The notes beneath the pieces were generated by a model, which was given only the letters and a program-made list of their open reading frames with translations, was not told where the DNA came from and did not search any database. 64,000 nucleotides of DNA from Muribaculaceae bacterium. GTDB taxonomy: Bacteria; Bacteroidota; Bacteroidia; Bacteroidales; Muribaculaceae. The stretch spans positions 62,001-126,000 of the forward strand of contig JAFLUA010000001.1 in the NCBI GenBank assembly GCA_022508985.1, written 5' to 3'. Of this stretch, positions 7,619 to 61,556 are shown in pieces (position 1 is the stretch's first letter; the number at the start of each line of letters is the position of its first letter). The translations under genes and the position numbers were made by a program.

Positions 7619-8935
7619 ATGAAACGGTTATTTACAACAGCCTTAGTTGCTGCAGTCATATCAATGGGCGTTTCAGCTCAGCAGTTCATCGTCTTATCGG
7701 AGGGTGGCGGCGATTATGGCAATTTTGCGCCGATGCATCTTTCTGCAGATGGCAAATATCTGTGTGGAAACACATTGGAATATCCATTTGTTACCGATTG
7801 GCAGAATGATAACGACATAGTCTATTTCAAAGACGCATCATTCTATGTGACGGGAGCCGAAGCACGTTGGGTCACTAATGAAGGCCTTGCTGTAGGCTAT
7901 GACGATAACGGTGGCTTGCTATTAGACTTTGCGACCGGTAAATATACCGTGGTAGAGCCTGTTGACGTCGATGCAGGCGTTAATCGTGTTATATGTGAGG
8001 CTATATCGGAAGACGGCTCTATTATTATAGGCACAGTCGAAGGCCTTGATTGGACTGAACAGCCTTATTATTGGGAGAATGGCGTAAAGAAAAAATTTGC
8101 GATACCTACTTCCGAAGAGGCTGGCTTCAAAGTAAATGGCGCTGTGCCCAAATTTATCAGCAAAGATGCAAGTGTCGTTGTCGGATTCCTCCTCGATGAA
8201 CTGGGAATGCGCCCAATGCTTATTTGGCATCGCCAAGACGACGGTGAGTATAAATACGACCTCGTTTTCAAAGATTATTTCCAATGGTCGTCGTGGGAGA
8301 ATGGCCCCGAAGGCGATAAACCCTACACTACATTTATGCCAATGGCTCTAAGCCCCGATGGAAAACTGGTGGCGATGTGTATACGCGAAAACGACGGCGT
8401 GTCGCTCTTTACTATTAAAAAAGTAGGTGTTTACGATATCGCAACGGGCGATTTGGAGGTGAGCACTCTCGATGGCGACCACGGCATCAACCCCGATATC
8501 GAAGCCGATTGTAATGCTACTGCCATTGCAAACGACGGCACAGTGATAGGATATGTGGGCGATTTAGACCGCCGTGCCTTCTTGATGCACCCCGAAGAAA
8601 TGCAGCCTTCGTTGCTATCGATGGAGTTTGATGAGTTTGAAAATCTATATAAATACGATTTATATCTGAGTCATACCGTATTTTCTATCTCGGAAGATGG
8701 AAGGTATATAACAGGTTCCGGGGCCACTTTCGATAACAGCGGATGGTATGCCGGAACCGAGGCTTACGTTCTCGATACGGCTAAAGGTATCGACTCGACG
8801 CCTTCGATAACAGTGAAAAAACAGGCTCAACCAGAGTATTATACTATCGAGGGGCGTAAACTGAATACCCCTTCAAAGGGCCTGAACATTATTAAAGATT
8901 CCGATGGAATAACTAAAAAGGTTTTGATAAAATAG
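7619..8935 (+). CDS. Secreted HAF-repeat-like beta-propeller protein with T9SS C-terminal sorting domain
   Basis: 438 aa. A signal peptide (MKRLFTTALVAAVISMGVSAQ) is followed by repeated motifs of the type 'ISEDGSIIIGT...YYWENG', resembling HAF-type extracellular beta-propeller repeats (ALSPDGKLVA and SISEDGRYITGSG are further copies). The last about 50 residues (YYTIEGRKLNTPSKGLNII...KKVLIK) fit the type A T9SS sorting domain: Y-x-x-G-R, then G-x-x-I, and a basic-hydrophobic end. It should be exported across the outer membrane and attached to the surface. Binding partner unknown. It is the first gene after the promoter at 7551. Confidence 0.75.
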   Translation: MKRLFTTALVAAVISMGVSAQQFIVLSEGGGDYGNFAPMHLSADGKYLCGNTLEYPFVTDWQNDNDIVYFKDASFYVTGAEARWVTNEGLAVGYDDNGGLLLDFATGKYTVVEPVDVDAGVNRVICEAISEDGSIIIGTVEGLDWTEQPYYWENGVKKKFAIPTSEEAGFKVNGAVPKFISKDASVVVGFLLDELGMRPMLIWHRQDDGEYKYDLVFKDYFQWSSWENGPEGDKPYTTFMPMALSPDGKLVAMCIRENDGVSLFTIKKVGVYDIATGDLEVSTLDGDHGINPDIEADCNATAIANDGTVIGYVGDLDRRAFLMHPEEMQPSLLSMEFDEFENLYKYDLYLSHTVFSISEDGRYITGSGATFDNSGWYAGTEAYVLDTAKGIDSTPSITVKKQAQPEYYTIEGRKLNTPSKGLNIIKDSDGITKKVLIK

Positions 8936-8977: not shown

Positions 8978-9469
8978 ATGAAGAAAACATTTTTAGCTCT
9001 TGCATTATTGCTTCTGAATATTGCCTTTGTTGCAGAAGCTCAGTTGCCATCTGTTTCGCTTAAGACAATCGACGGCAAGACAATCGACACGGCAACATTG
9101 TCGAACGATGGCAAGCCGTTTATCATCGACTTTTTTGCTACATGGTGCAAACCATGTATCAGAGAGCTCAAAGCGATACAAGAAGTCTATGATGATTGGC
9201 AAGATGAAACAGGCGTAAAACTGATAGCAGTGTCGATTGATGAAGCTCAAAACATCAATAAAGTGAAGCCTCTTGTCGATAGCAACAGCTGGGATTATGA
9301 AGTTTTACTCGACCCTAACAGCGATTTCAAACGCGCGCTCGGCATCCAGATGATACCCTATACGCTGATAGTTGATGGGAAGGGTAATATTGTGTATAAA
9401 CACAACGGATATACCGATGGTGCTGAACAGGAGCTGATAGATATCGTAAGAGGACTGCTCGATAAATAA
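8978..9469 (+). CDS. TlpA/ResA-like periplasmic thioredoxin
   Basis: 163 aa with a signal peptide (cut after AEAQ). The thioredoxin fold carries the redox motif WCKPC (Cys57, Cys60), followed by a cis-Pro region IQMIPYTLIVDGKG. The family reduces or oxidises envelope thiols. It lies 8 bases before the DUF6029 gene and heads a run with two further thioredoxin-fold proteins (Omp28-like), pointing to a dedicated envelope redox function. Confidence 0.88.
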   Translation: MKKTFLALALLLLNIAFVAEAQLPSVSLKTIDGKTIDTATLSNDGKPFIIDFFATWCKPCIRELKAIQEVYDDWQDETGVKLIAVSIDEAQNINKVKPLVDSNSWDYEVLLDPNSDFKRALGIQMIPYTLIVDGKGNIVYKHNGYTDGAEQELIDIVRGLLDK

Positions 9470-9477
9470 AACACAGG

Positions 9478-11130
9478 ATGAAATTCGCATACAAACCCTG
9501 TAGATCTCTTTTGACGATTGTCGCGTTAGCGTCTTGCATCGTGCTCTCTGCGCAAGATGCAAAGAAGGTCGTGGTGAGCGGTAGCGTTCAGAGCGATATC
9601 CTTTTTCCACAAGAAGACCAGGCAATCGGAGCGATAGACTATAAAGAGTGGGCTCTCACCAACACCTATGCCGACGTGTCGTTGCGTAGCCGATATGTCG
9701 ATGCCGGTGCACGTTTTGAGTTCCTTCAGTTTCCGCTCCCGGGATTTGATGAAGACGGCTTCAAGGGGTGGGGCATAGGCAATATCTATGCCAAATTTCA
9801 CACCAAAAATTTTGCTCTCACTCTCGGTAATTTCTACGAGCAGTTTGGCTCCGGTTTTATTCTGCGCTCCTACGAAGAGCGTAGCCTTGGCCTCGACAAC
9901 TCTTTGCTCGGCGCTCATATTGCCGCCAAGCCCTTTAAAGGCGTTAGCGTTAAGGCACTATCTGGCTTCCAACGTCGTTATTGGAGCCTCAACAAGTCGC
10001 TAATATCCGGTGCTGATGTCGAGCTGAACTTTGAAGAATGGCTCAAAACGCTTCAAGATAATGGCACGTATCTCTCGCTTGGCGCATCTTATGTAAATAA
10101 GCACGAAGGCGATGAAGATATTATGTATGATGCGACCCACCGCTTGAATTTGCCTAAAAACGTGAATTCATTCGACCTTAGAGCGCGCCTCCAGAAAGGA
10201 GGGTTTAATATACTTGCCGAGTATGCTCGGAAAACGCAAGACCCCTCGTCGGACAACGGATATATCTATCGCAACGGATATGCGACGATGTTGTCGGCGT
10301 CATATTCACAAAAGGGCATGAGTGTCTTGTTACAGGCAAAACGTAGCGATAATATGACTAATCGCAGCCGCCGCAGCATGATAGGCCTATCGTCAAAACT
10401 AAATTTTTTGCCGCCATTTACAACCGATCATACCTACACCTTGGCTGCGCTTTATCCTTATGCAACCAATCCCGACGGCGAATGGGCATATCAAGCGGAG
10501 TTGGCATATAACTTCAAGCGCAAAACGCCTCTGGGTGGTAAATATGGCACGAATGTGAAAGTAAACTTCTCATATATTCGTTCTATAGAAAAAAATGCCA
10601 TCGATGGTGGTGTCCGCGGCAGTGACGGATACGGGTCTCCTTTCTGGAAATGGGGCGACACACGATATTATCAAGATTTCAACATTCAGTTAGAGAAAAA
10701 GATATCGAGTGCGTTCAAACTCAACTTGATGTATATGAACCAATACTATAACAAAACGGCCATAGAAGGGGAGGGCGGTGCTGTGCGCTCCAACATTTTT
10801 ATAGCCGAAGGTAAGTATACTATAAACAGGAAATTTACATTGAGAGGTGAAGCTCAGTATCTTGCCACAAAAGATGATGAAGGAGATTGGATCTTTGGAC
10901 TCCTCGAGTTGTCGATATTGCCTAACTGGATGGTTACTGTCTCCGATGAATATAATTGCGGAAAGACTAAGTTGCATTACTATTCGGCATTACTCACATT
11001 CAGCAAAGGTGCCCATCGCATTCAAGCCGGCTATGCCCGTACACGCGGAGGCTTTAATTGCTCCGGCGGCGTATGTCGTGAGGTAAAGCCCAGCAAAGGT
11101 TTTTCTATTTCGTATAACTATAATTTCTGA
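9478..11130 (+). CDS. DUF6029-family probable outer-membrane beta-barrel protein
   Basis: 550 aa. An N-terminal signal peptide ends at LSAQ. The rest is rich in alternating polar/aromatic strands (GNFYEQFGSGFILRSYEE, GGFNILAEYARKT, FSISYNYNF at the end). A terminal aromatic Phe is typical of outer-membrane barrels. It resembles the Bacteroidota family DUF6029, for which I know no defined function. Only 2 bases separate it from the Omp28-like lipoprotein gene, and 8 bases from the thioredoxin gene, so the three are almost certainly one operon. A channel or anchor for the redox proteins is an inference. Confidence 0.72.
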   Translation: MKFAYKPCRSLLTIVALASCIVLSAQDAKKVVVSGSVQSDILFPQEDQAIGAIDYKEWALTNTYADVSLRSRYVDAGARFEFLQFPLPGFDEDGFKGWGIGNIYAKFHTKNFALTLGNFYEQFGSGFILRSYEERSLGLDNSLLGAHIAAKPFKGVSVKALSGFQRRYWSLNKSLISGADVELNFEEWLKTLQDNGTYLSLGASYVNKHEGDEDIMYDATHRLNLPKNVNSFDLRARLQKGGFNILAEYARKTQDPSSDNGYIYRNGYATMLSASYSQKGMSVLLQAKRSDNMTNRSRRSMIGLSSKLNFLPPFTTDHTYTLAALYPYATNPDGEWAYQAELAYNFKRKTPLGGKYGTNVKVNFSYIRSIEKNAIDGGVRGSDGYGSPFWKWGDTRYYQDFNIQLEKKISSAFKLNLMYMNQYYNKTAIEGEGGAVRSNIFIAEGKYTINRKFTLRGEAQYLATKDDEGDWIFGLLELSILPNWMVTVSDEYNCGKTKLHYYSALLTFSKGAHRIQAGYARTRGGFNCSGGVCREVKPSKGFSISYNYNF

Positions 11131-11132
11131 AG

Positions 11133-11939
11133 ATGAAAGCGCATAATCTATTATATATCTTGCCGATAGCTGTCGTAGCTTTCATCATGCATGCGTGCGA
11201 CACCGTGGCCGAGGGCGACAGGCTCATATATGTGAAACCGGCCGAGGTTAACCGCAATGTCCTTATCGAAGATTTCACCGGCCAACGCTGTGTAAATTGT
11301 CCGGCAGCCTCGGCTGAAATTGAGAAATTGCAAGAAGAGTATGGCGATGATGTCGTTATCGCCGTAGGTATACACTCAGGTCCCTTCGGGCACCGAACAA
11401 CGATGTCGAGTGCTCGCCTGCCTCTTTGTACCGAGACCGGTGATGAGTATTACACTCATTGGGGGATAACATCGCAGCCCGGCGTGAAAATAAATCGCGG
11501 GGCTCCGGTCTACAACACCGCCGAATATGGAAGCATAGTATACAATGCCTTGCAGCAACATTCGCCGCTATCAATGGCGATCGACCTCGATTATAACTCC
11601 GAGTCGAGAACTTTGGCTGTCGATGTTGCGGCAAACACTAATAAAAATCTTAGCGGAAAGTTGCAGGTGTGGATTGTAGAAAATGGCGTTGTGGCGCAGC
11701 AGAGTATGGCCGACGGCTCGGTCAATAACGATTATGTGCACCAGCATGTGTTCCGGGCAAGCTTGACCAACGATATTTTCGGCGATGATATCACCGTTAA
11801 TGAGGGTTCGGAAAAACATGCAGCCTATAGTATTGCTCTCGACACGGAGTGGGTGGCCGAGAATACTGCCATTGTAGCTTTTATCAGCAACGATGCCGAC
11901 GGGGTGCTACAGGTTGTAAAGAAAGAATTTGAAAAATAA
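11133..11939 (+). CDS. Omp28-related lipoprotein with CVNC thioredoxin-like motif
   Basis: 268 aa. The lipobox MHAC puts the lipidated Cys at 22. Residues about 45-140 are a thioredoxin-like Omp28 domain: VLIEDFTGQRCVNCPAA with the CxxC pair Cys53/Cys56, then a conserved IHSGPFG. Omp28 was named from a P. gingivalis surface adhesin. There is no T9SS tail, so it is probably held by its lipid in the outer membrane. It is coupled to the DUF6029 gene upstream. Confidence 0.82.
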   Translation: MKAHNLLYILPIAVVAFIMHACDTVAEGDRLIYVKPAEVNRNVLIEDFTGQRCVNCPAASAEIEKLQEEYGDDVVIAVGIHSGPFGHRTTMSSARLPLCTETGDEYYTHWGITSQPGVKINRGAPVYNTAEYGSIVYNALQQHSPLSMAIDLDYNSESRTLAVDVAANTNKNLSGKLQVWIVENGVVAQQSMADGSVNNDYVHQHVFRASLTNDIFGDDITVNEGSEKHAAYSIALDTEWVAENTAIVAFISNDADGVLQVVKKEFEK

Positions 11940-11958
11940 TAATAGCAACACGATGTAT

Positions 11959-12597
11959 ATGAAAAAGTTATCTACGATTGTCTTTCTTATGTCAGTATGT
12001 GTGCTGTCGGCAGTCGCACAGTCCGACGACACTTTCTATTTTGTCGATGCCAATGGTAAAAAAGTTGCCGATGGCTCGACGATAACAGTCACCGACACCG
12101 AAGACGATGGCTTTGGCACTATGATTATGAAAACAGGCCTCTATATCAAGTCTGATAAGACAGGTTCGCTATATGCTTGTATGGCTTATAACATTCTTGA
12201 AATGCCTAACGGAGCTTTCCAAGTGTGTTTCCCCGAAAACTGCACTCAGGCTGATGAAGAGGGTAGCTATGAAACACCGGTAGGTGAAGTAAAGGTTAGC
12301 GATATCCAGGCTGAGTGGTTGGCCGATGATTATGGTATTGCTAAGGTTGAACTCCAGCCGAAAACATATCGCCACAATAACGTGACCAATGCTAACACTT
12401 TTGTCGGTAATGGCCCGAAAGTTACTGTTATTTTCGATTATTCCGACCCGGCCGGAATTAGCGGTGTTGAAGCTAACGGCAGCAAAGTGGTGGCACGTTA
12501 TTCCTTAGATGGCAGAGTGCTATCGCAGCCCGAAAATGGTATTAACATCGTGAAAACCGACGATGGCAAAGTGCGTAAAATAATGATTAAAAAGTGA
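11959..12597 (+). CDS. Small secreted protein with T9SS C-terminal sorting domain
   Basis: About 212 aa from the ATG at 11959 (MKKLSTIVFLMSVCVLSAVAQ is a clean signal peptide; ATG 11953 adds two residues, and a TTG at 11929 would overlap the previous gene). The body has a short beta-rich domain with no recognised family. The end (VVARYSLDGRVLSQPENGINIV...KIMIKK) is a T9SS type A tail nearly identical in pattern to the tails at 8935 and 14587. It lies between two Omp28-domain genes and is probably in the same operon. Confidence 0.75.
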   Translation: MKKLSTIVFLMSVCVLSAVAQSDDTFYFVDANGKKVADGSTITVTDTEDDGFGTMIMKTGLYIKSDKTGSLYACMAYNILEMPNGAFQVCFPENCTQADEEGSYETPVGEVKVSDIQAEWLADDYGIAKVELQPKTYRHNNVTNANTFVGNGPKVTVIFDYSDPAGISGVEANGSKVVARYSLDGRVLSQPENGINIVKTDDGKVRKIMIKK

Positions 12598-12604
12598 TAT
12601 AGGT

Positions 12605-14587
12605 ATGAAAAAACTTTTACTCGCTGCAGCTCTTGCTGCCTTTGGCTTTTTAGCTAATGCTCAGGTTGTCATTCCTGTGTATCAAGGTGATGGTGCACTA
12701 AAGTGTGCTAATGAAAAGATTGTACTAAACAAACAGATTTCGAAATTCAATGCACCTAAAAAAGTAGCATCTCTCGACGATGCTATGGTGTGGGGTTATT
12801 ACCTCGGTGATTTATCCGATGAAAATATCGGCGCTTCGGGTGTTCAAGCCCCGGCTACATACTATGTCGGTTATTATGTGCCCGGTAGTGGCGTGTTGAA
12901 AGGTGCCAGTATCGTTGGCATTAACTTGCCCGTTTTTACTGCCGAAAACATGACGGATGTTAGTGTTTGGATTTCGGAAGATCTCGAAACCGACGTCGTA
13001 AGCAAGGAGGTCAACGAAAAAACGCTTATCGACTTTGAGTTTAACGCAGTGGCTTTGGATGAGCCCTACAAAATACCCGCCGACGGCGTTTACGTTGGTG
13101 CTAAATTCACTATCAACGCGGTTTATTCCGAAGGTGATGCATATCCTATCCTTATGGAATCGGTCGACGAACCGGCAGAGTACTCTATGTTGCTCCGTTT
13201 CGTAGCATCAGGGCAAGACTCGGGATGGGATGATTACACCGACTATTTTAGCGCTCAATATGCTATGCAGCTGTTCTGCACCGACATGGCATTGAACGAA
13301 CGCGAAGCTTCCTTCCGCTCTGTAATGTCATCGTCAGTATTGCCAGGTGGAGAAGCTACTGTTCCCGCGGTGATTGCAAGCGATGGCTCCGAAGATATTA
13401 ATTCGATAGACTATATCGTTGAAATTAACGGTGTTAAGACTACATATCATCTCGACCTTAAAACGCCTATCGCAAAGGGCTTTAACAAGAAAGGCGAAGT
13501 AGACCTCACCTACACTGCTCCTGAAGAATATGGCGCATATACAGCCTTGTTCAGCATCGATAAAGTAAATGGCAAAGACAATGCCGCAAGTGATGAGAAA
13601 CTCTTGGTGGTTAATAAAGTGCTCACAAAGATTGTAGAGCGCTACACTGTCGTTGAAGAGTTCACTGGCACCGGCTGTGGATGGTGCCCTCGTGGCTGGT
13701 TTGGCATGGAGGCCCTCAAAGAGCAGAGAGAAAACTTTATCGGTATTGCTTTCCACCAATATAATTCAAGCGACCCGATGTATAACAGCGCTTATTTCCC
13801 GGCATATCAACTCGGTATAAGCGGTGCTCCGGGTTGTACGGTCGATCGTAAGTACCTTGGCGTTGACCCATACTACGGCAACACTTCTGGCACACCATTG
13901 GGAATAATCGACCTATTTGACTTCTGCAACGCTTTGCTCCCCGATGTCGACATTACTCTCACTGCCGACTTTAACGACGATATGTCGGAAGTTAATGTGG
14001 CGGCTGATGTTGAATATCTCACAAACGGCGACAAATACTCTATTGCCTATGTCCTCACTGCCGACAATATAACCGGTACAACAGCTATATGGAAGCAGGC
14101 CAACTACTTCGCCGACTATCCTCCGTCTAAATTTAACAACGATCCCAATCTTTCGCAATTCTGCCGTGGAGGTTCGATGGCTTCATCTTCATTGACACTT
14201 GTGTATAACGACGTAATGATAGGAAGCTCATACGGCACGTCCGGTGTGAACCGTGCACCTGCTCTTGACGGTGAAGTGAAAGCCGGTAATATTGTAAGTA
14301 ATAGTTACACTGTTGCCATGCCTACTAAAGCGGTCTTGAAAAAAGCTCTGGATTACGACAATATATATGCTATCGCTCTTGTGGTATCGAGCGACGGTGC
14401 CATCGCCAACGCTGCGCGTGTTAAAGTAGGTGGCGACCAAAATGGTGTTGAAAATGTTGTTACCGACGCTAACGCTGTCGAAGTAGCTCGCTTCAATATT
14501 GCAGGTCAGGTCATTTCGGCTCCACAGAAGGGTATTAACATTGTTAAGTACTCCAACGGTAAAACAGAAAAAGTAATAGTTCGATAA
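12605..14587 (+). CDS. Omp28-domain secreted protein with CGWC motif and T9SS sorting domain
   Basis: 660 aa. The signal peptide ends at ANAQ. Residues about 20-340 are beta-rich with CARDB/Ig-like character. Residues about 345-480 are an Omp28 thioredoxin-like domain (VVEEFTGTGCGWCPRGW, Cys358 and Cys361). The tail (VARFNIAGQVISAPQKGINIV...EKVIVR) is a T9SS sorting domain. It is the surface-exported counterpart of the 11133 lipoprotein. It starts 7 bases after the preceding gene and is followed by a strong terminator at 14607. Confidence 0.8.
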   Translation: MKKLLLAAALAAFGFLANAQVVIPVYQGDGALKCANEKIVLNKQISKFNAPKKVASLDDAMVWGYYLGDLSDENIGASGVQAPATYYVGYYVPGSGVLKGASIVGINLPVFTAENMTDVSVWISEDLETDVVSKEVNEKTLIDFEFNAVALDEPYKIPADGVYVGAKFTINAVYSEGDAYPILMESVDEPAEYSMLLRFVASGQDSGWDDYTDYFSAQYAMQLFCTDMALNEREASFRSVMSSSVLPGGEATVPAVIASDGSEDINSIDYIVEINGVKTTYHLDLKTPIAKGFNKKGEVDLTYTAPEEYGAYTALFSIDKVNGKDNAASDEKLLVVNKVLTKIVERYTVVEEFTGTGCGWCPRGWFGMEALKEQRENFIGIAFHQYNSSDPMYNSAYFPAYQLGISGAPGCTVDRKYLGVDPYYGNTSGTPLGIIDLFDFCNALLPDVDITLTADFNDDMSEVNVAADVEYLTNGDKYSIAYVLTADNITGTTAIWKQANYFADYPPSKFNNDPNLSQFCRGGSMASSSLTLVYNDVMIGSSYGTSGVNRAPALDGEVKAGNIVSNSYTVAMPTKAVLKKALDYDNIYAIALVVSSDGAIANAARVKVGGDQNGVENVVTDANAVEVARFNIAGQVISAPQKGINIVKYSNGKTEKVIVR

Positions 14588-14606: not shown

Positions 14607-14645
14607 CAGCGCGCCGGATTTTCTCCGGCGCGCTGTCGTTTATTT
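14607..14645 (+). terminator. Strong intrinsic terminator after the Omp28 module
   Basis: A perfect 12-bp G+C-rich stem (CAGCGCGCCGGA / TCCGGCGCGCTG, 14607-14618 and 14624-14635) has a 5-base loop TTTTC. It is followed by a T-rich stretch (TCGTTTATTTT). It closes the operon ending at 14587. Confidence 0.9.
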
Positions 14646-33785: not shown

Positions 33786-33797
33786 TAAAAATTTTTG

Positions 33798-35033
33798 ATG
33801 TCTGTAATGAATCCGCGCGATTTACGAATCGAAGAATATAATTACCCGCTACCCGACGAGCGCATAGCCAAGCACCCGTTGGCTAAGCGCGATGCTTGCA
33901 AGTTGTTGGTGTACGGTTCGTCGTCGATATCCGATCATATCTTCAGCGAGTTGCCGACACTTTTGCCCTCCGATGCGATGCTGGTATATAACAATACGCG
34001 AGTTATAAATGCTCGCTTGCGTTTTTTCAAATCGACAGGTGCTCTTATCGAGATTTTCTGCCTCGAGCCCTGCCGCCCATCGGATTATGAGCAGGCTTTT
34101 TCCTCGACTGGGTCATGCACATGGCAATGTCTGGTTGGTAATTCGAAAAAATGGAAAGACGGCGACCTTAAAATGGAGGTATCGACTCGTCGTGGCACAA
34201 CCATTCTCACGGCCCGACGCGAACCTGTGCCCACAGCCGACGACAAGTCGCAGGCCATAGCGTTTGAGTGGGATAATGCGACGCTGAGTTTTTCTGACAT
34301 AATTTCGGTAGTAGGAGAGATACCAATTCCGCCATATCTAAATAGGAAGTCGGAAGATAGCGATGCTGTCGACTATCAAACTGTCTACAGCCATATCGAC
34401 GGCTCTGTTGCGGCACCGACAGCCGGTCTGCATTTTACTAATGAATTGCTCGAGGCTCTCATAATGCGCGGCATAGTGCGGCACGAAGTTACTCTGCATG
34501 TGGGTGCAGGCACATTCCGCCCCGTTAAATCGGACAATATCGGTGAACACGACATGCACTCCGAGTATATCGCTGTTGACCGAGATTTCATTGCCGAGCT
34601 GGCCGACAGCGTAGGCAAACGCCCTATTGTTGCCGTTGGCACTACGTCGGTGAGGACTCTCGAGAGTCTATATCACATAGGGTGCCTCATCTTGAGGAAT
34701 GAGTGGAAAGGCGAGCTGCCTCAATGGACTCCATACGACATTACTGCCGAGTGTGAAGTATCTGCTTCAGAGGCCCTCAAAGCGATTGTTGCGACGCTCG
34801 ACGATAATGGCGACAACACGCTTATCGCTCGCACCAAAATAATAATAGCACCGGGATATAAATATCGTATAGTCGGTGCTATGATTACGAATTTCCACCA
34901 GCCACAATCGACGCTATTACTGCTCGTATCGGCATTTATAGGCGATGATTGGCGGCGTATTTATACTCATGCACTTGATAAGAACTACCGTTTTTTAAGT
35001 TACGGTGATGCTTGTCTTTTATTCTGTCAATAA
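33798..35033 (+). CDS. QueA-family S-adenosylmethionine:tRNA ribosyltransferase-isomerase, long paralogue
   Basis: 411 aa from ATG 33798 (ATG 33807, MNPRDLRIEEY, is a good alternative). QueA transfers and isomerises the ribose of SAM onto preQ1-tRNA to make epoxyqueuosine. Motifs match the classical enzyme closely: NNTRVINARL, GEIPIPPYL, AAPTAGLHF, LHVGAGTFRPV, HDMHSEY, VGTTSVRTLES, TNFHQPQSTL, FLSYGDA. It is about 60 residues longer than E. coli QueA, with an insertion between the GTTSVRTLES and APGYKY motifs. A second, diverged QueA is at 53512. The gene is 9 bases upstream of the acyltransferase-family gene. Confidence 0.85.
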   Translation: MSVMNPRDLRIEEYNYPLPDERIAKHPLAKRDACKLLVYGSSSISDHIFSELPTLLPSDAMLVYNNTRVINARLRFFKSTGALIEIFCLEPCRPSDYEQAFSSTGSCTWQCLVGNSKKWKDGDLKMEVSTRRGTTILTARREPVPTADDKSQAIAFEWDNATLSFSDIISVVGEIPIPPYLNRKSEDSDAVDYQTVYSHIDGSVAAPTAGLHFTNELLEALIMRGIVRHEVTLHVGAGTFRPVKSDNIGEHDMHSEYIAVDRDFIAELADSVGKRPIVAVGTTSVRTLESLYHIGCLILRNEWKGELPQWTPYDITAECEVSASEALKAIVATLDDNGDNTLIARTKIIIAPGYKYRIVGAMITNFHQPQSTLLLLVSAFIGDDWRRIYTHALDKNYRFLSYGDACLLFCQ

Positions 35034-53511: not shown

Positions 53512-54564
53512 ATGAAACTCTCAAAGTTCAAATTCAACCTTCCCGAAGAACTTATCGCTAAATATCCTACACCCGACCGCGACGATGCGCGCATGATGGT
53601 CGTAAATCGTAAAACAGGAGAAATATCACACCATATTTTCAGCGATATTCTTGGTTTTTTCAATGACCAAGACGTTATGGTCTTTAATGACACTCTGGTG
53701 TTCCCGGCTCTTCTCTATGGCAACAAAGAGAAAACGGGCGCGCGTATCGAAGTGTTTCTCCTTCGCGAACTCAACGCCGATAATAAGTTGTGGGATGTGT
53801 TGGTTGAACCGGCTCGTAAAATACGTATAGGAAATAAACTCTATTTCGGCGACGACGAGTCGATGGTCGCTGAGGTAATAGATAATACGACATCGCGAGG
53901 CCGTACTTTGCGCTTCTTATACGATGGGCCTCACGATGAATTCAAACGAGACCTATTTGCTCTTGGCATGACTCCGCTGCCTCCCTATATCAAGCGCGAC
54001 CCCGAGCCCGACGATGCTAAGAATTACCAATGTATCTTTGCTGAAAAAGAGGGCGCTGTTGTCGCTCCCGCTGCCGGTCTGCACTTTTCGCGAAGCCTTC
54101 TTACACGATTGCAAATCAAAGGTGTGAAGAAAGCATTCGTTACCGTACATAGCGGCTTGGGCGCTTTCCGTGAAATAGATGTTGAAGATCTTACAAAGCA
54201 TCGTATGGATTCTGAGCAAATGATTGCTACGCCTGAATTAGTGGAGACGGTAAACGCCGCTCGTGATGGTGGCCACAGAGTGTGTGCCGTTGGCACTTCG
54301 GTGTTGCGTGCTATTGCAACAGCCGAAAGCATGGGTGGACATATGAAGACATACGACGGTTGGACTAATAAGTTTATCTTCCCGCCATACGATTTCACGG
54401 TAGCTACCGATTTTGTTACAAATTTCCATATGCCTTACTCAACTATGCTCATGATGTCGGCTGCTTTTGGTGGCTACGACTTGATAATGGAGGCATACCG
54501 CACTGCAATTAAAGAAGGGTATCGCTTCGGATGCTATGGTGATGCCATGCTTGTGATAGGCTAA
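53512..54564 (+). CDS. QueA-family tRNA ribosyltransferase-isomerase, cluster paralogue with altered motifs
   Basis: 350 aa, the normal QueA length. The fold is clear ([52 protein letters not shown]), but key signatures differ from the classical ones: HVGAGTF reads HSGLGAF, MHSEY reads MDSEQ, and GTTSVRSLES reads [10 protein letters not shown]. The other paralogue at 33798 keeps the classical forms. The locus next to truB is where queA is normally annotated in the phylum, so which copy makes epoxyqueuosine is open. Confidence 0.85.
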
Positions 54565-54600: not shown

Positions 54601-54631
54601 CAATAATAATGAAAAAAGTTCGTTATTATTG
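54601..54631 (+). promoter_or_regulatory. A+T-rich hairpin covering the porT ribosome-binding region
   Basis: CAATAATAA (54601-54609) and TTATTATTG (54623-54631) form a perfect 9-bp inverted repeat with a 13-base loop, plus one G-T pair. It ends 3 bases before the porT ATG, so it could mask translation initiation. Confidence 0.6.
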
Positions 54632-54635
54632 TTGA
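54609..54635 (+). other. Possible 8-codon upstream ORF (MKKVRYYC) overlapping the porT start
   Basis: ATG at 54609 starts an 8-codon reading frame that ends in TGA (54633-54635). The TGA shares its A with the porT ATG (TGATG). The ORF occupies the hairpin at 54601-54631, which is the arrangement expected of translational coupling. It is too short to judge by sequence alone. Confidence 0.35.
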
Positions 54636-55357
54636 TGAAGTACTTGAAGACATTAATTCTATTTTTATTGGCTGGTATTGCAATAGTAATGCCGGCCTAT
54701 TCTCGTACTTTTAACGATAAAATATTAAATCGACCCTATGCCGATATGCGAAAATGGCATCTTGGCTTTTCGGTGGGCATGTATACTTCCGATTTGCTAT
54801 TTAAGCATAACGGATATATAACCGAAGAAGGTGAAGAATGGCGCATCGATCAGCCTGATTATCAACCCGGATTTTGTGTTAATGGCTTGTTTGATTTACG
54901 GCTTAATAACTATTTTTCGTTGCGTATTTCTCCGGGCATGTATTTCGGAAGCCGTAATGTGTCGATGCGAGAGGTCGAAACTGCAGCTGTGCAGCGTCAA
55001 AATGTAAAGTCAACATTTATAGTATTGCCCGTTGATGTAAAATATGCCGCTGCGCGCTATCGTAATTCGCGTCCTTACATCGTAGGTGGCATTCTTCCGG
55101 TTTTTGATGTAACAAAAAAGAGAAGCGATATATTTCAATTGCAATCGGGCGATGTATATCTTTCGGTCGGTTTTGGTTGCGATTTTTATCTGCCATATTT
55201 CAAGCTTAATCCTGAAATAAAGTTCTGCTTTGGCCTGAGCGATGTACTCATTCATGATCGCCCCGACCTCGAAGATGACCCTTTGAAGTATAAGTTTACG
55301 CAGTCGCTATCAAAAGTGACTTCCAATATGGTAGTCCTAACCTTCTATTTCGAATAA
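54635..55357 (+). CDS. porT: Type IX secretion system protein PorT
   Basis: 240 aa from ATG 54635 (MKYLKTLILFLLAGIAIVMPAYS, a signal peptide; the in-frame TTG codons before it are rejected). The body looks like a small outer-membrane beta-barrel (FDLRLNNYFSLRISPGMYFGSRN; ending VTSNMVVLTFYFE with terminal aromatic residues). PorT/SprT is required for gingipain secretion in P. gingivalis. It is directly followed, 4 bases later, by porP, so it is in the T9SS operon. Confidence 0.85.
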   Translation: MKYLKTLILFLLAGIAIVMPAYSRTFNDKILNRPYADMRKWHLGFSVGMYTSDLLFKHNGYITEEGEEWRIDQPDYQPGFCVNGLFDLRLNNYFSLRISPGMYFGSRNVSMREVETAAVQRQNVKSTFIVLPVDVKYAAARYRNSRPYIVGGILPVFDVTKKRSDIFQLQSGDVYLSVGFGCDFYLPYFKLNPEIKFCFGLSDVLIHDRPDLEDDPLKYKFTQSLSKVTSNMVVLTFYFE

Positions 55358-55361
55358 AACA

Positions 55362-56354
55362 ATGAAGCTCAAAACGCTAATATTGTCGATATCAATTGTT
55401 CTATTCTCAGCTTTTTGCGTAAAAGGGCAGAGCGATGTGCAATTGGCGCAGTATTATGAAGTGCCGTCGTTTTACAATCCTTCTGCAATAGGTAATACCG
55501 ATTATATCCGCATCCGCGGTGGGGCGCGATTGCAATGGCTGGGTATCGAGAATGCACCACAAAGTTTTGTGGGCGTTGCCGATATGCCCTTTAAGCTTTT
55601 AGAGAAGCGATTTGCTGTCGGTGTCGAAATTGCACAAGAAAGTATAGGCCTATATCAAACGCTCAATGCCGGCGCACAGATAGCTTATAAATTGCGCAAA
55701 TGGGGTGGGCTGTGGAGTGTAGGTCTACAAGTGGGTCTCTACGACCAATCTTTCAAGGGCTCGGAAGTGTATCTGCCCGATGACGACGACTATCACCAGA
55801 GTGTTGATGATGCTATCCCTACATCAGATATACATGGCACAGCCCTTGACTTGGCTGCAGGTATATGGTATGAGCATCCGCGCTTCTATGCAGGCCTGTC
55901 GTGTACTCACCTTACATCTCCAACGATTACGATGAATGCTGAAAATGCATCGGGGGGCAGCGAAACATCAAGCGACCGAAAATACCAGTTTCAAGCTCGC
56001 CGAACATTATATTTCACAGCCGGATGCAATATTCCGATAGAAAATACGTTATTTGAAATAGCACCATCTGTTTTAGTTAAATCCGATTTCGGTTTTACGA
56101 CAGGTGAATTGACGGCTCGCGCCAGATATCGCAAACTACTTTCTTTTGGTGTTGGATATCGATGGAACGATGCCGTGATAGCCACAGTCGCTGCCGAAGT
56201 GAAGAACTTTTACATAGGTTATAGCTACGAATATGCTACTACGGCCATAAGGGCCGCATCGTCGGGTAGCCATGAACTATTTATAGGATATAGCCTTAAA
56301 CTCGATTTATCGGATAAAAATCGAAACAGACATAAAAGTGTAAGGCTGATGTAG
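55362..56354 (+). CDS. porP: Type IX secretion system membrane protein PorP/SprF family
   Basis: 330 aa. A signal peptide ending near KGQS and the family start motif QYYEVPSFYNPSAIG are followed by barrel strands. Family members are outer-membrane proteins; PorP works with the PorK-PorN ring, and SprF assists secretion of specific cargo. It is 51 bases upstream of porK. Confidence 0.9.
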   Translation: MKLKTLILSISIVLFSAFCVKGQSDVQLAQYYEVPSFYNPSAIGNTDYIRIRGGARLQWLGIENAPQSFVGVADMPFKLLEKRFAVGVEIAQESIGLYQTLNAGAQIAYKLRKWGGLWSVGLQVGLYDQSFKGSEVYLPDDDDYHQSVDDAIPTSDIHGTALDLAAGIWYEHPRFYAGLSCTHLTSPTITMNAENASGGSETSSDRKYQFQARRTLYFTAGCNIPIENTLFEIAPSVLVKSDFGFTTGELTARARYRKLLSFGVGYRWNDAVIATVAAEVKNFYIGYSYEYATTAIRAASSGSHELFIGYSLKLDLSDKNRNRHKSVRLM

Positions 56355-56404
56355 CCTTTTTGAAGCAGTTTTTTTTTATAAGAAAGATATAGAATAAGAA
56401 AAAT

Positions 56405-57856
56405 ATGAAGAAAACCAAGCGGATATTATTTTCGTGTATGGCAGTAGCTCTACTTGTATCGTGTGCAGCCGGTGGTGGCCGCTTATCGGCAGGTGGGGAA
56501 GTAACAGGAGTCGGAGGCCCGTCGTGGGCAGAGCCTACTCCCTATGGGATGGTGCTTATCGACCGTGGCTCTATGAAGGTAGGCGTTAGTAATGCCGATT
56601 CTTTATGGAATCTTGAAGCAAATGCTCGTGGTATTTCAGTTGATGGGTTTTGGATGGATGAAACCGAAATCACAAATGCCAAATACAAGCAATTTGTCTT
56701 TTGGGTTCGCGATTCCATTATCCGCGAGCGTCTTGCCGATCCTGCTTATGGCGGTAATGAAGATTTTAAGATAGAAGAAGACCGCGAAGGTAATCCGGTG
56801 ACACCTCATCTTAATTGGAATAAAGCTATCCCTTGGCGTAACCCCAACGAAGACGAGCTGCGGGCCATCGAAAGTGTGTATCGCACAAATCCGATTACCG
56901 GAGTACGTGAACTTGATGGCGAGCAACTTAACTATCGCTATGAAGTATATAACCATACAGAAGCAGCCAAACGTCGCAACCGCCTCGACCCGAAGCGCCG
57001 TGAATATAATACCGACAAGGCTACTCCTACCCAATCGCCTGTTATATCGAAAGATACAGCATATATAAACGATGAGGGCGAAATCGTACGTCAAACCATA
57101 TCACGAGTTCTTACGGGCGACTACGATTTTGTGAATACATATATCGTGAATGTGTATCCCGACACCACCGCTTGGGTCAACGACTTTGAGAACGCTTACA
57201 ACGAGCCTTATGTGAGAATGTACTTTGCGCATGGTGGTTATTCCGATTATCCTGTTGTGGGCGTGAGCTGGGAGCAAGCAACAGCTTTTGCTAATTGGCG
57301 CACCGATTTCCTTCGTCGCTCGTTAGGTCGAGAGGGTATCTATGTAGAGCCTTATCGCTTGCCCACAGAAGCCGAATGGGAATTTGCCGCACGTGCCGGC
57401 ATTGATGATAATCCATATCCATGGGATGGCGATCTTACCATGAGTGACGATAAAGGTTGCTTTTATGCCAATTTCAAGCCAATGGAAGGCAATTACGTTA
57501 AAGACGGGCATGTTATCACATCACGTGTCGGCACTTATGCGCCCAACGACTTTGGTCTATATGATATGGCAGGTAATGTGAGCGAATGGACCTCGACCGC
57601 TTACACCGAGAGTGTCGGTCGTCTCACCTCTGATCTCAATCCCGATTACAGATATAATGCCGCCGTTGAAGACCCATACAAGATGAAGCGTAAAATAATA
57701 CGTGGCGGCTCTTGGAAAGATGTTGCTCACAATGTGCGTTCCGACCTCAGAATGTGGGAATATCAGAATGAACAGCGCTCGTATATAGGATTCCGCTGCG
57801 TGCGTACTCAAATAGGATTTGCCAAAGGGCAGAAACAGAAAAACAGAAAACGCTAA
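56405..57856 (+). CDS. porK: T9SS ring lipoprotein PorK/GldK
   Basis: 483 aa. The lipobox LVSC gives lipidated Cys20. The formylglycine-generating-enzyme-like (SUMF1) fold is readable (MVLIDRGSMKVG; MDETEITNAKYKQF; YRLPTEAEWEFAAR; NVSEWTSTAY; RGGSWKD). GldK/PorK forms the large periplasmic ring with PorN. It is expected to act structurally, not as an enzyme. It is 37 bases upstream of porL. Confidence 0.94.
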   Translation: MKKTKRILFSCMAVALLVSCAAGGGRLSAGGEVTGVGGPSWAEPTPYGMVLIDRGSMKVGVSNADSLWNLEANARGISVDGFWMDETEITNAKYKQFVFWVRDSIIRERLADPAYGGNEDFKIEEDREGNPVTPHLNWNKAIPWRNPNEDELRAIESVYRTNPITGVRELDGEQLNYRYEVYNHTEAAKRRNRLDPKRREYNTDKATPTQSPVISKDTAYINDEGEIVRQTISRVLTGDYDFVNTYIVNVYPDTTAWVNDFENAYNEPYVRMYFAHGGYSDYPVVGVSWEQATAFANWRTDFLRRSLGREGIYVEPYRLPTEAEWEFAARAGIDDNPYPWDGDLTMSDDKGCFYANFKPMEGNYVKDGHVITSRVGTYAPNDFGLYDMAGNVSEWTSTAYTESVGRLTSDLNPDYRYNAAVEDPYKMKRKIIRGGSWKDVAHNVRSDLRMWEYQNEQRSYIGFRCVRTQIGFAKGQKQKNRKR

Positions 57857-57893
57857 ACTATTACCATATCTTCTGTAAATATTAAAGTTTATT

Positions 57894-58835
57894 ATGGGAA
57901 AAGTTCAACAATATAAGAGCGGCATAAGTGCCTTTATCGGTAGCGAAAAGGGCCAACGCTTTTTCAATTTTGCATATAGTATTGGTGCTGCTATCGTTAT
58001 ATGGGGTGCCTTGTTCAAGATTCTTCACCTCCCCGGAGGTAACGTGCTCCTATCTATCGGTATGGGTACCGAGGTCTTAATGTTTATCCTTACTGCTTTC
58101 GATCGTCCTCCGAAAGAATATAAGTGGGAAGAAGTTTTTCCTGCGCTTAAAGGTGATGAGTCGATAGAAGACGGTCAGATTACCGGCACGGTAGTGCCAG
58201 GTGTTACTGAAGGCCAGGCCCGCCGAACAGTAGGGCTACCGGATAATATCGATCTAACGCCTGAAGACAGCCGCTCATTGAGTGATAGCATTGCTAAAAT
58301 GGCGGCCGCTGCCGACCAGTTGGCACGAATGTCGGAACTGACATGCGCCACACAGCAATATCTCGACCAGATGTCGACAATAGCCAACGATATGCAACAA
58401 TTACATGCTACTACAGCAGCGCTCAATGAAGTATCATCTGTGCTCCTCGATAGTTATCGGGCTATCACTGAAAACTCTGCCGAAATATCTCAGAGCTCAC
58501 AAGGTTATGTTGAGCAAATGCAGGCTCTCCATCGTAATATCGGTGGTCTCAACACCATATATGAATTGCAATTACGCAGCGTGTCTTCGCAAATCGATTC
58601 TATTGACCGCGTAAATCGTGGAATAAAAGACATACGCGATATGTATGAAAAATCGGTAACTCAAAGTGCACGCTATTGTGAAGAAACAGAGCGTATGGCT
58701 CGTTATATTGAGCAACTCAATGGCGTATACGAGAAGATGATTACGGCAATGACAATAAACATGTGCCGCCCGATGATGAATCCACAGGCAAATAGTGGAG
58801 AGCAAGCAACAAATCCGTTCGATATCTCTAAATAA
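57894..58835 (+). CDS. porL: T9SS motor protein PorL/GldL
   Basis: 313 aa. Two N-terminal membrane helices (about residues 20-70) with the conserved LFKILHLPGGN loop and a membrane-embedded Glu in GMGTEVLMF. A long cytoplasmic helical domain follows (residues 95-300). PorL and PorM form the proton-driven rotary motor of T9SS. The Glu is the residue expected to take part in proton conduction. PorM starts 7 bases later. Confidence 0.95.
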   Translation: MGKVQQYKSGISAFIGSEKGQRFFNFAYSIGAAIVIWGALFKILHLPGGNVLLSIGMGTEVLMFILTAFDRPPKEYKWEEVFPALKGDESIEDGQITGTVVPGVTEGQARRTVGLPDNIDLTPEDSRSLSDSIAKMAAAADQLARMSELTCATQQYLDQMSTIANDMQQLHATTAALNEVSSVLLDSYRAITENSAEISQSSQGYVEQMQALHRNIGGLNTIYELQLRSVSSQIDSIDRVNRGIKDIRDMYEKSVTQSARYCEETERMARYIEQLNGVYEKMITAMTINMCRPMMNPQANSGEQATNPFDISK

Positions 58836-58842
58836 AAAATAG

Positions 58843-60408
58843 ATGGGAGCTAACGGCACAAAACAATCACCGCGCCAGAAGATGATAAACTTGATGTATA
58901 TCGTCTTAACGGCTATGCTTGCCCTTAATGTGTCGAGCGATGTCCTCGATGGCTTCACGCAAGTTCACGATGGCCTTAATCGCTCTAATTCCAACTTCGA
59001 GACGAGAAATTCATCGATATATAGCCAATTACAGAGTTTTGCGGAAAAGAATCCTGAGAAGGGCCGTCAGTGGCTCGATAAGGCCACCGAAGTGCGCAAT
59101 GTTACGTCGGCTCTTTATGGTTATGTCGATTCTCTTAAATTGCGAATAGTAAAGAAAGCCGATGGCGCTAATGGGTCGCCCGCCAATATTAAAAACCGCG
59201 ACGATCTCGAAGCTGCCGCTGTGATAATGTTGGCACCCGGGACTCTTCGCGGCCGTGATTTGAGGTTGCGTATCGACGATTATCGTGGCTATGTGTCGTC
59301 GATGATACCCGACACACTAAAGCGCCACACCATAGAGGAAGCATTGTCGACAGCCCCCATTGTTCGCTCGGGTACTCTTGCTCCTCAACTTTGGGAAGAG
59401 GCAAAATTTGACCAGCAACCTGTTGTGGCAGCAGTAACACTCCTTTCTAAATTGCAGAGCGATATCTTATATGCCGAAGGAGAAGTGTTAGCGTCTCTAC
59501 TGTCGCAAGTCGATGCCGGTGATTTGCGCGTTAATGAACTTAATGCCTATGTTATGCCTCAATCACGATTGGTAATGCGCGGTGGAAAATATTCAGCCAA
59601 TATAGTATTGGCAGCTGTTGACACTACGCAGCGTCCACGAGTGTATATTGAAGGAAAGCCCCTCGATAATTCTTACGGGTTATATGAAATAAGCACAGGC
59701 GCTACAGGCAATTTTGACTATACCGGTTGGCTTGAGGTGAGTCACGACGATGGCACTACGACAAGGCACGATTTCCGCTCGTCGTATACCGTAATTGAGC
59801 CTATGGCAACAGTATCGGCCACTCTTATGAATGTGCTATATGCCGGTATAAATAACCCGGTGAGTATTTCCGTGCCGGGCGTAGCTATGGGCGACATCTC
59901 GGCAGCTATGACAAACGGCACCCTCGTGCGCGACGGCGACCATTGGGTGGCAAAGCCTCAGACCGTAGGGCAAGATGCCGTGATAACTGTCACTGCAAAT
60001 ATGGACGGACACTCTGTGCCTATGGCTGCCACAACGTTTAGAGTTAGAAAATTGCCCGATCCGACACCTTTCATCGCTTTCAGGGATGCACAAGGGAATA
60101 CCGACCATTATCGTGGCGGTAAGCCTTTCGCGAAGTCGTTATTGATGGCTTCGCCCGGCCTTGAGGCAGCTATTGACGACGGTCTGTTGGATACACCATT
60201 TACTGTGATAAGCTTCGAAACAGTTTTCTTCGATTCGTCGGGTAATGCTTTGCCCGAGGTTAGTGATGGATCACAATTCTCACAACGCCAAAAATCGCAA
60301 TTCCAGCGCCTCGCCCGTGGAAAACGTTTCTTCATCTCGAGAATTAAGGCTAAAGGTCCCGATGGTATAACGCGCGATCTATCGCCGATGGAAGTTATTG
60401 TAAACTAA
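58843..60408 (+). CDS. porM: T9SS motor protein PorM/GldM
   Basis: 521 aa. A short cytoplasmic N-terminus (SPRQKMINLMYIV, with an Arg before the single membrane helix) leads to a long periplasmic region of four domains: helical near residues 35-215, then Ig-like beta domains (VRDGDHWVAKPQTVGQDAVITVTANMDGHS). PorM spans the periplasm and passes the motor torque to the PorK-PorN ring. Confidence 0.95.
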   Translation: MGANGTKQSPRQKMINLMYIVLTAMLALNVSSDVLDGFTQVHDGLNRSNSNFETRNSSIYSQLQSFAEKNPEKGRQWLDKATEVRNVTSALYGYVDSLKLRIVKKADGANGSPANIKNRDDLEAAAVIMLAPGTLRGRDLRLRIDDYRGYVSSMIPDTLKRHTIEEALSTAPIVRSGTLAPQLWEEAKFDQQPVVAAVTLLSKLQSDILYAEGEVLASLLSQVDAGDLRVNELNAYVMPQSRLVMRGGKYSANIVLAAVDTTQRPRVYIEGKPLDNSYGLYEISTGATGNFDYTGWLEVSHDDGTTTRHDFRSSYTVIEPMATVSATLMNVLYAGINNPVSISVPGVAMGDISAAMTNGTLVRDGDHWVAKPQTVGQDAVITVTANMDGHSVPMAATTFRVRKLPDPTPFIAFRDAQGNTDHYRGGKPFAKSLLMASPGLEAAIDDGLLDTPFTVISFETVFFDSSGNALPEVSDGSQFSQRQKSQFQRLARGKRFFISRIKAKGPDGITRDLSPMEVIVN

Positions 60409-60428
60409 GTTCATTCTTTATCGACAAT

Positions 60429-61556
60429 ATGAATAGAATAATAAAAACAGCACTCGCAGCAACTGCAATTATATGTTGTAGCGCAATGTCATTTGCTCAA
60501 GACGATAGCAATGGTGTCGTTCGTCGTCGTACTGCCGATCGTAATGCACCCAAGCAGCAAGATGGTACGGTGGTTACGGAGCGTATGCAGAGCTTTTTCA
60601 GCAACGATGATTCGAGCATCACCGATGCCGATAAACAATGGATGAGGGTTATATATCGCTCTCTCGACGTCGATAAAGATAAAAACGGACCATTGTATTT
60701 CCCTGAGGAACCTATTGACGGACAAGAAAATCTTTTCCGCATAATAATGCGACTCCTTGCCGCAAATACTATTCCGGCATATGAATACCTCGATGGTCGT
60801 GAAATTTTTACAGAGCAGTATCGCATCAAAACACGCGATGTCCTCGACCGCTTTTATATACCATACACCGAGGCTAAAGGCTCTACAGAGAAGAATCCGC
60901 GTTTTACTATCGATGAAAATGACGTGCCCACAAATGAGGTCCTCTCTTATTATATAGTGGAGCGTTGGGAATACGACACTCGCAACAATCGCCTCAATCC
61001 TATTGTAGAAGCAATATGTCCGGTGCTTCACCGTGCCGGCGATTTTGGCGGCGATGCGTTAAAATATCCCATGTTTTGGGTGAAATTTACCGACTTAAGA
61101 CCGTATCTTGCCGCCCAGACAATTTTCGTGGATGACGATAACAACTTGCCAACATGTACCTACGATGATTTCTTCACCCTCACCATGTATGATGGCGATA
61201 TTTATAAAACGCGTAATTTGAAAAACAAGTCGATGGTGCAGTTATATTCCGATCCCGACGACCTCAAAAGAGCTCAAGATAGTATTCAAAGCCGCCTCGA
61301 CGATTTCGAAAAGAAATTGTGGGTGCCTTCTCGCGAAGAAGTGATTGCGGCACGTGAGGCGCGTGAAGCTCTCGAAGCCGGACGTGATAGCTCGGCTGTT
61401 GTTGAAAAATCAACACCGAAAACGTCAAGGACACGAGCTACGAGTCGCTCTACTAAAAGTTCGACAAAGACAAAAGAAGTGAAGGCGAAGACTCCTAAAC
61501 AGTCGTCGCAATCGTCTAACTCCGGTGCTACACGTTCGGTGCGCCGTCGCAAATAA
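60429..61556 (+). CDS. porN: T9SS ring protein PorN/GldN
   Basis: 375 aa. A signal peptide ends near SFAQ. The PorN core follows (DKQWMRVIYRSLDVDKDKNGPLYFPEEP; ENLFRIIMRLLAAN; YYIVERWEYDTRNNR). The last about 60 residues are a low-complexity Lys/Arg/Ser/Thr tail (TSRSTKSSTKTKEVKAKTPK). PorN completes the ring with the PorK lipoprotein. It is the last gene of the operon, closed by the terminator at 61580. Confidence 0.94.
   Translation: MNRIIKTALAATAIICCSAMSFAQDDSNGVVRRRTADRNAPKQQDGTVVTERMQSFFSNDDSSITDADKQWMRVIYRSLDVDKDKNGPLYFPEEPIDGQENLFRIIMRLLAANTIPAYEYLDGREIFTEQYRIKTRDVLDRFYIPYTEAKGSTEKNPRFTIDENDVPTNEVLSYYIVERWEYDTRNNRLNPIVEAICPVLHRAGDFGGDALKYPMFWVKFTDLRPYLAAQTIFVDDDNNLPTCTYDDFFTLTMYDGDIYKTRNLKNKSMVQLYSDPDDLKRAQDSIQSRLDDFEKKLWVPSREEVIAAREAREALEAGRDSSAVVEKSTPKTSRTRATSRSTKSSTKTKEVKAKTPKQSSQSSNSGATRSVRRRK

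Follow-up and report, generated by a model that had tools for sequence, protein, structure and literature searches.

A conserved cluster of cysteine-pair envelope proteins around DUF6029 and a PorA relative in the Bacteroidales, a probable thiol-redox unit

Described relatives and the products of the cluster

The closest described relatives of the five-gene cluster reported here, which occupies positions 8978 to 14587 of a 64,000-nucleotide stretch of Muribaculaceae bacterium DNA (assembly GCA_022508985.1, contig JAFLUA010000001.1; the whole stretch is called the window), are found in Porphyromonas gingivalis. The PorA protein of this organism (PGN_0123/PG2172) is required for PorXY-SigP signalling, is bound by PorV, and is present on the surface of mutants in the type IX secretion system (T9SS); it was described alone, as confined to Porphyromonas, with homologues reported from that genus only at BLAST E<1e-4 (PMC7712824). 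The small protein of the cluster is homologous to the PorA N-domain over nearly its whole length but is encoded within a cluster. PG2172 is PorA and PG2173 an Omp28 lipoprotein (PMC9722745), the vesicle protein PG2174 is uncharacterised (PMC4335976), and the numbering PG2175-PG2172 fits a TlpA-DUF6029-Omp28-PorA order, by which PG2174 would be the DUF6029 protein and PG2175 the TlpA.

Surface thioredoxins that receive their electrons from the inner membrane, and disulfide reduction through a haem conduit, are already known. The CcdA-Etrx-MsrAB2 system of Streptococcus pneumoniae likewise has surface thioredoxin-fold lipoproteins supplied by an inner-membrane electron carrier, but involves no outer membrane and no barrel (PMC3914529), and in Shewanella electrons likewise exit through the outer-membrane Mtr system to reduce external disulfides, but on haem cytochromes rather than thiols, with DsbD explained there by cytochrome maturation (PMC10986466). 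HBP35 (PG0616) of P. gingivalis, a surface thioredoxin exported by the T9SS, catalyses the reduction of insulin by dithiothreitol and loses this activity in the C48S C51S mutant (PMC2907840). The largest protein of the cluster shares with HBP35 a thioredoxin fold, a CxxC motif and a putative sorting domain, but exceeds it in length, with an extension at the N-terminus, and its gene lies beside a PorA-like gene. We found no system of this composition described in the open-licence literature searched, and we consider it highly probable that the cluster is a real, single envelope thiol-redox unit around PorA.

The five open reading frames (ORFs) are all on the forward strand with intergenic gaps of 8, 2, 13 and 7 bases. 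The gap ahead of the small ORF is 19 bases if counted from the next ATG, and an alternative upstream start, a TTG at 11929, is likewise open. Re-reading of coordinates and motifs confirmed the ORFs, small gaps and CxxC motifs that an earlier note on this DNA had reported, as well as its strong terminator, a 12-pair hairpin at 14607..14635 (scored on both strands) that ends the cluster. That note had counted three CxxC proteins; it overlooked two further pairs, in the last loop of DUF6029 and in the PorA relative, and near-invariant cysteine pairs are thus present in all five products.

Conservation was followed in 198 genomes of the order, of which 112 have DUF6029, and in three sets of loci: a named-genome set comprising the best 80 of 582 loci, almost all from Prevotellaceae, Muribaculaceae and other Bacteroidales; 40 order loci with wide flanks, hand-picked from the 112 and including four distant members; and a phylum set of 29 loci with 1.5 kb flanks.

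The first gene (8978..9469) encodes a TlpA/ResA-like periplasmic thiol-disulfide oxidoreductase with a WCKPC motif (C57-C60, codons 9146-9157). It is placed in this family by its AhpC-TSA/Redoxin score (78.3 bits against a cut-off of 26) and reaches no cut-off in the NCBIfam scan. The family profile (A4) matches PDB entry 2m72, which we take to be PG_2175, at E=8.5e-73, and CxxC is kept in 133 of 134 module TlpAs, the exception (L106) ending at a contig end.

The product of the second gene (9478..11130) is a DUF6029 protein (PF19494, 618 bits against a cut-off of 27, residues 12-550, E=1.6e-185) and a probable outer-membrane beta-barrel, the last residue of which, F550, is invariant in the 61 sequences of alignment A2. 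Directly ahead of the last strand is the pair C528-SGGV-C533 (11059..11076), within a C-x-GGVC-R motif. Because the final strand of an outer-membrane barrel runs back to the periplasm, the loop bearing this pair should face outward. The pair is kept in 38 of 38 sequences (37 loci and the window), in all 40 order loci, distant members included, and in 27 of the 29 phylum loci, where the two sequences without it come from split or truncated frames; its presence in 80 of 80 named loci is partly built in, as one of the search patterns contains the motif. Matches of DUF6029 to RecA in the PDB, which cover 34-50 residues of fused-RecA constructs only, were set aside.

The third gene (11133..11939; CVNC, codons 11289-11300) encodes an Omp28 outer-membrane lipoprotein (NF033782, 270 bits against a cut-off of 150, E=1.3e-80). 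The lipobox cysteine C22 is invariant in its alignment (A5), and some CxxC is present in 136 of 136 Omp28 lipoproteins. Acidic residues after the lipid cysteine of Omp28 resemble surface-export signals, and of the 112 Omp28 lipoproteins with a recognised lipobox 61 percent have D or E at position +2. The 660-residue product of the fifth gene (12605..14587; CGWC, codons 13676-13687) had been called Omp28 outright. Its homology to the lipoprotein is borne out by comparison of their profiles (A6 against A5, hhalign E=4e-29), and we term it Omp28-like only, because it falls below the curated cut-offs (20.2 of 34.9 bits for Pfam Omp28, 29.8 of 150 for NCBIfam). Both profiles also align with that of TlpA (Omp28, E=3e-5, probability 73; Omp28-like, E=7e-5, probability 64), and in all three comparisons CxxC is aligned on CxxC. 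The Omp28-like pair C358/C361 is kept in 17 of 17 sequences, and the profile matches the HBP35 structure 5y1a at E=4.9e-9.

The fourth gene (11953..12597; C-x4-C, codons 12226-12243) encodes a small protein with no domain over cut-off in the Pfam and NCBIfam scans, which the earlier note had regarded as generic T9SS cargo. By profile comparison it is instead a member of the PorA family. A broad profile of such small proteins (A7) matches the PorA N-domain structure 6kjk at E=3.1e-6 over chain residues 10-136; profile A3, which includes the window protein, reaches only E=0.035 but aligns its cysteine pair to that of PorA, and the two profiles are joined at hhalign E=1.6e-33. Only three columns are invariant in 36 relatives of the window protein: the two cysteines and Q23, the first mature residue after the predicted signal cleavage. 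The broader set of 22 shares, besides both cysteines, a single invariant glycine. Among 76 PorA-like proteins, a count that excludes proteins labelled TlpA, the cysteines are kept in 68 and 70. A predicted model (pLDDT 89.5) places C92 and C97 at a tight beta-hairpin turn, at the edges of strands 88-92 and 97-100. We note also that the PorA-like proteins of six loci (L100, L102, L103, L112, L115 and L117) end in DVNGDGEVNIADVNAVID-type stretches, which appear dockerin-like, in place of a sorting tail.

The small and Omp28-like proteins of the window both remain below cut-off for the sorting domain (TIGR04183/PF18962), and a relative of the small protein in L035 reaches it; sorting tails are thus suggested by the C-terminal motif and by relatives. 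The proposal that the cluster reaches the surface through the T9SS holds only in part: the core is present in three of the 198 genomes that have no SprA/Sov match, and PorA itself is surface-exposed in P. gingivalis mutants of the T9SS. T9SS dependence was dropped as a key to the module: SprA hardly discriminates, because it is found in 187 of the 198 genomes (109/112 with DUF6029 and 78/86 of the others, p=0.06).

Gene order, fusions and DsbD

The genes belong together, as the earlier note proposed; genomes in which DUF6029 is never next to Omp28 or TlpA would have spoken against this, and adjacency was found. Taking as adjacent a TlpA gene no more than 1.5 kb upstream, or an Omp28 lipoprotein gene no more than 1.5 kb downstream, of DUF6029 on the same strand, TlpA is present in 103 of the 112 order genomes, Omp28 in 88, both in 85 and neither in six, among the matches listed. 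In the 85 genomes with both, the gaps are 8-562 bases on the TlpA side (median 82) and 2-335 bases on the Omp28 side (median 38). One genome scored as lacking partners, G113, has Omp28 adjoining DUF6029 when the locus is read directly. The 80 named loci include 77 with TlpA upstream, 78 with Omp28 downstream, 71 with a PorA-like gene, 58 with a further Omp28 domain and 57 with all five genes; for the 40 order loci the counts are TlpA 38, Omp28 36, PorA-like gene 8 and further Omp28 domain 15. Order varies in the phylum set, with TlpA-DUF6029-PorA in L173, and DUF6029-Omp28 without an adjacent TlpA in L158, L160, L166, L174-L176 and L178.

The PorA N-domain is present in 69 of the 80 named loci, 12 of the 40 order loci and 15 of the 29 phylum loci. 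At the level of genomes it is found in at least 91 of the 112 with DUF6029 and at least 6 of the 86 without (Fisher p=7e-28, a value that ignores kinship, and six of the 91 genomes were themselves a source of profile sequences); of the six genomes with PorA but no DUF6029, five share a genus with a genome that carries DUF6029. PorA and DUF6029 lie no more than 10 kb apart in at least 29 genomes, with PorA on either side of DUF6029 and on either strand.

Several of the products are also found fused. In one genome (G059, locus L046, also sampled as L170; 99 percent complete), a single 697-residue lipoprotein frame comprises Omp28 (9-273), PorA (301-442, with CAGGQC) and a second Omp28 domain (481-697, with CGYC), in the same order as the separate genes elsewhere. 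This genome has neither a SprA nor a PglZ (PorX-like) match. PorA is fused to a long Omp28 protein (Omp28X) in L079, L084, L109, L113 and L121; two further candidates, L067 and L077, were dropped because the PorA match was weak or within the sorting tail. As a separate observation, long proteins in which PorA-like and Omp28-like stretches recur adjoin the module in G186:C19:26000-33500 and G082:C179.

Among 149 loci scanned, four families have a DsbD gene within or next to the cluster, at four positions: on the same strand after the Omp28-like gene in L070, L071 and L140, after Omp28 in L033, upstream in L047 and directly after DUF6029 in L152. L112 has one on the opposite strand. Pfam finds DsbD_TM in L033, L047, L070 and L152, and DsbD_N over cut-off in L033, L047 and L152; by a rough estimate from one to three copies per genome, about 0.3 such loci would be expected by chance. 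DsbD_TM occurs in 191 of the 198 genomes and VKOR in 12, the genome of the window not among them. The redox role suggested in the earlier note is further supported by these DsbD genes, the fusions and the cysteine pairs; nothing found here points to surface adhesins, the folding of which it had proposed as a possible purpose.

Possible routes for electrons and rival roles

The best single mechanism, which we advance tentatively and as falling a little short of probable, is an outward reductive relay from DsbD through TlpA and DUF6029/Omp28 to PorA at the surface. DsbD would bring electrons through the inner membrane and periplasmic TlpA would take them over; the DUF6029 barrel and the Omp28 lipoprotein would form a station in the outer membrane that passes them outward by dithiol-disulfide exchange, and the HBP35-like surface thioredoxin encoded by the Omp28-like gene, together with PorA, would be the terminal partners. 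The cell would in this way control the redox state of the PorA hairpin cysteines, and that state could serve as a readout of surface conditions. We favor the relay because surface thioredoxin folds with intact active sites need a redox partner, and their companions in the cluster provide one step per compartment. It supposes a barrel structure for DUF6029 in which the C-x4-C points outward, exchange among the cysteine pairs, and transfer of electrons outward across the outer membrane, and further that this relay feeds PorXY-SigP. This signalling pathway is the first surface function to consider, since the small protein is a PorA relative, and a PglZ-domain protein in the genome of the window could be PorX. 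Thiol exchange at this membrane is itself real, since components of the T9SS and gliding machinery use inter-protein disulfides, SprF and PorG forming them with GldK (PMC12635249). In its full form the proposal is of a heme- and flavin-free thiol conduit, DsbD-TlpA-DUF6029-Omp28, that sets the redox state of PorA-family proteins and surface thioredoxins, which is possible, if rather doubtful; its reach would extend to over half of the sampled order genomes and elsewhere in the phylum.

If PorA, thought to be a Porphyromonas oddity, belongs to a conserved redox operon, its surface route and its link to PorY would become testable by single gene deletions in commensals. Passage of electrons over the outer membrane by way of thiols, if it occurs, would give anaerobes a new means of extracellular chemistry, with the disulfides of host mucins, immunoglobulins and proteases as candidate external targets.

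Several observations weigh against the relay. In a closed barrel, TlpA could contact an extracellular loop only if that loop were folded inward or Omp28 bridged the distance; the path through DUF6029 is hypothetical, and both the relay and the redox exchange across the membrane are read from sequence. Free thiols in the surroundings could serve as the redox partner of the surface thioredoxin folds. Immunoprecipitation of PorA gave OmpA, PorV and a methyltransferase, and not PG2173 or PG2174 (PMC7712824), and HBP35 also complements an Escherichia coli dsbA mutant (PMC2907840), so such proteins can oxidise too. The oxidising alternative is only partly excluded, because DsbB and DsbA were outside the searches. 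The cluster itself is not uniform: five genomes (G057, G070, G077, G174 and G181) have neither TlpA nor Omp28 beside DUF6029, their best matches being on other contigs (the Omp28 of G181 is on the opposite strand, 4.7 kb away), and the partner genes are thus dispersed; in the seven DUF6029 genomes that are most distant within the order, TlpA is present but Omp28 has no adjacent match; and in the phylum set TlpA is adjacent in 19 of 29 loci and Omp28 in 22, with neither in L156, L177 and L179. Outside the Prevotella-like loci PorA lies beside the core in a minority (the 8 of 40 order loci), and G113 and G126 have DUF6029 but no PorA among the matches listed. PorXY signalling is moreover not the sole role, because the core persists in G059, which has no match to SprA or to a PorX-like protein.

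The alternative that survives best, somewhat unlikely in our estimate, is that the cluster is a maturation unit, in which TlpA (with DsbD) and Omp28 would do no more than form or repair the disulfides of DUF6029, PorA and their partners before these reach the outer membrane, with no redox traffic across the outer membrane afterwards, much as DsbC and LptE act on the disulfides of LptD. The position of the PorA pair in the model, at a tight hairpin turn where structural disulfides often sit, is consistent with this, as is the activity of HBP35 in place of DsbA, and TlpA is the most constant neighbor of DUF6029, as expected of a dedicated folding catalyst. Maturation leaves unexplained, however, the two additional thioredoxin folds with intact CxxC at the outer membrane or surface (136/136 and 17/17) and the fusion of thioredoxin-fold proteins to PorA, and the neighboring DsbD points to reduction, VKOR being rare, though DsbB was not among the genes searched for.

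It is quite improbable that DUF6029 and Omp28 instead form a T9SS-independent export route for PorA that passes the state of PorA inward to PorY, with TlpA keeping PorA reduced and export-competent. The co-occurrence of PorA and DUF6029, and their proximity in varied orientations, would fit such a device, but DUF6029 with TlpA or Omp28 is more widely distributed than PorA (as in G113, G126 and the distant members), DUF6029 has no known export function, and it is PorV that binds PorA (PMC7712824). A role of DUF6029 as a polysaccharide secretion porin with incidental redox genes, suggested by the similarity of DUF6029 to Wzi-type barrels near OPX genes (PMC9603273), is very improbable, since its usual neighbors are thioredoxin-fold genes (OPX genes were outside the profile searches) and its conserved cysteine pair would have no role.

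Neighbouring genes

The trypsin-recruiting protein 00502 of Paraprevotella clara is an Omp28-related T9SS protein with a WD40-like N-terminus, and 00503-00508 are dispensable for trypsin degradation (PMC9477747). A protein of 1258-1270 residues with an Omp28 part adjoins the module in L114, L123, L125, L134 and L088; in L123 it also has a choice-of-anchor J domain and, by eye, a propeller-like N-terminus. In the three Paraprevotella loci (L114, L123 and L125) its gene is divergent from the module TlpA, with one full-length copy per genome, and the product is possibly 00502. We nevertheless rejected P. clara 00502-00509 as the counterpart of the cluster. The long Omp28 neighbor fits, but the genome of Palleniella muris (L072), presumably the Prevotella muris of the carrier list in the trypsin study, has no match to the 1258-1270-residue protein. 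In addition, the identities between L114 and L123 (TlpA 80 percent, DUF6029 74, Omp28 51, PorA-like 34, next gene 39 and long Omp28 38) do not clearly follow the thresholds given in PMC9477747.

An ORF of 325-350 codons upstream of TlpA was considered as a further member; of 22 such ORFs, 11 form one homologous group, and the one scanned is a mannose-6-phosphate isomerase (TIGR00218, over cut-off), so we regard it as an ordinary neighbor. This upstream isomerase (one scanned) recurs in several families, for example in L036, L052-L055 and L058-L060. In Hoylesella loescheii (L088, 10602-12287) a gene for an M6 peptidase of the immune inhibitor A type lies between the Omp28 and PorA-like genes.

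In the window, a gene for a HAF-repeat (propeller-like) protein with a sorting-like tail (7619..8935, forward strand; TIGR02913, 27.1 bits against a cut-off of 22.65) ends 42 bases upstream of TlpA. It is a possible extra member of the cluster, and among the loci read only L072 and L073 have it in the equivalent place. Further along, positions 54629-61556 encode a T9SS core, comprising an OMP_b-brl_2 barrel, PorP/SprF, a PorK-like FGE domain, GldL/PorL, GldM/PorM and GldN/PorN. The window also contains two QueA-type genes, at 33795-35033 and 53512-54564 (Queuosine_synth, 329 and 404 bits), one of which is probably a divergent paralogue.

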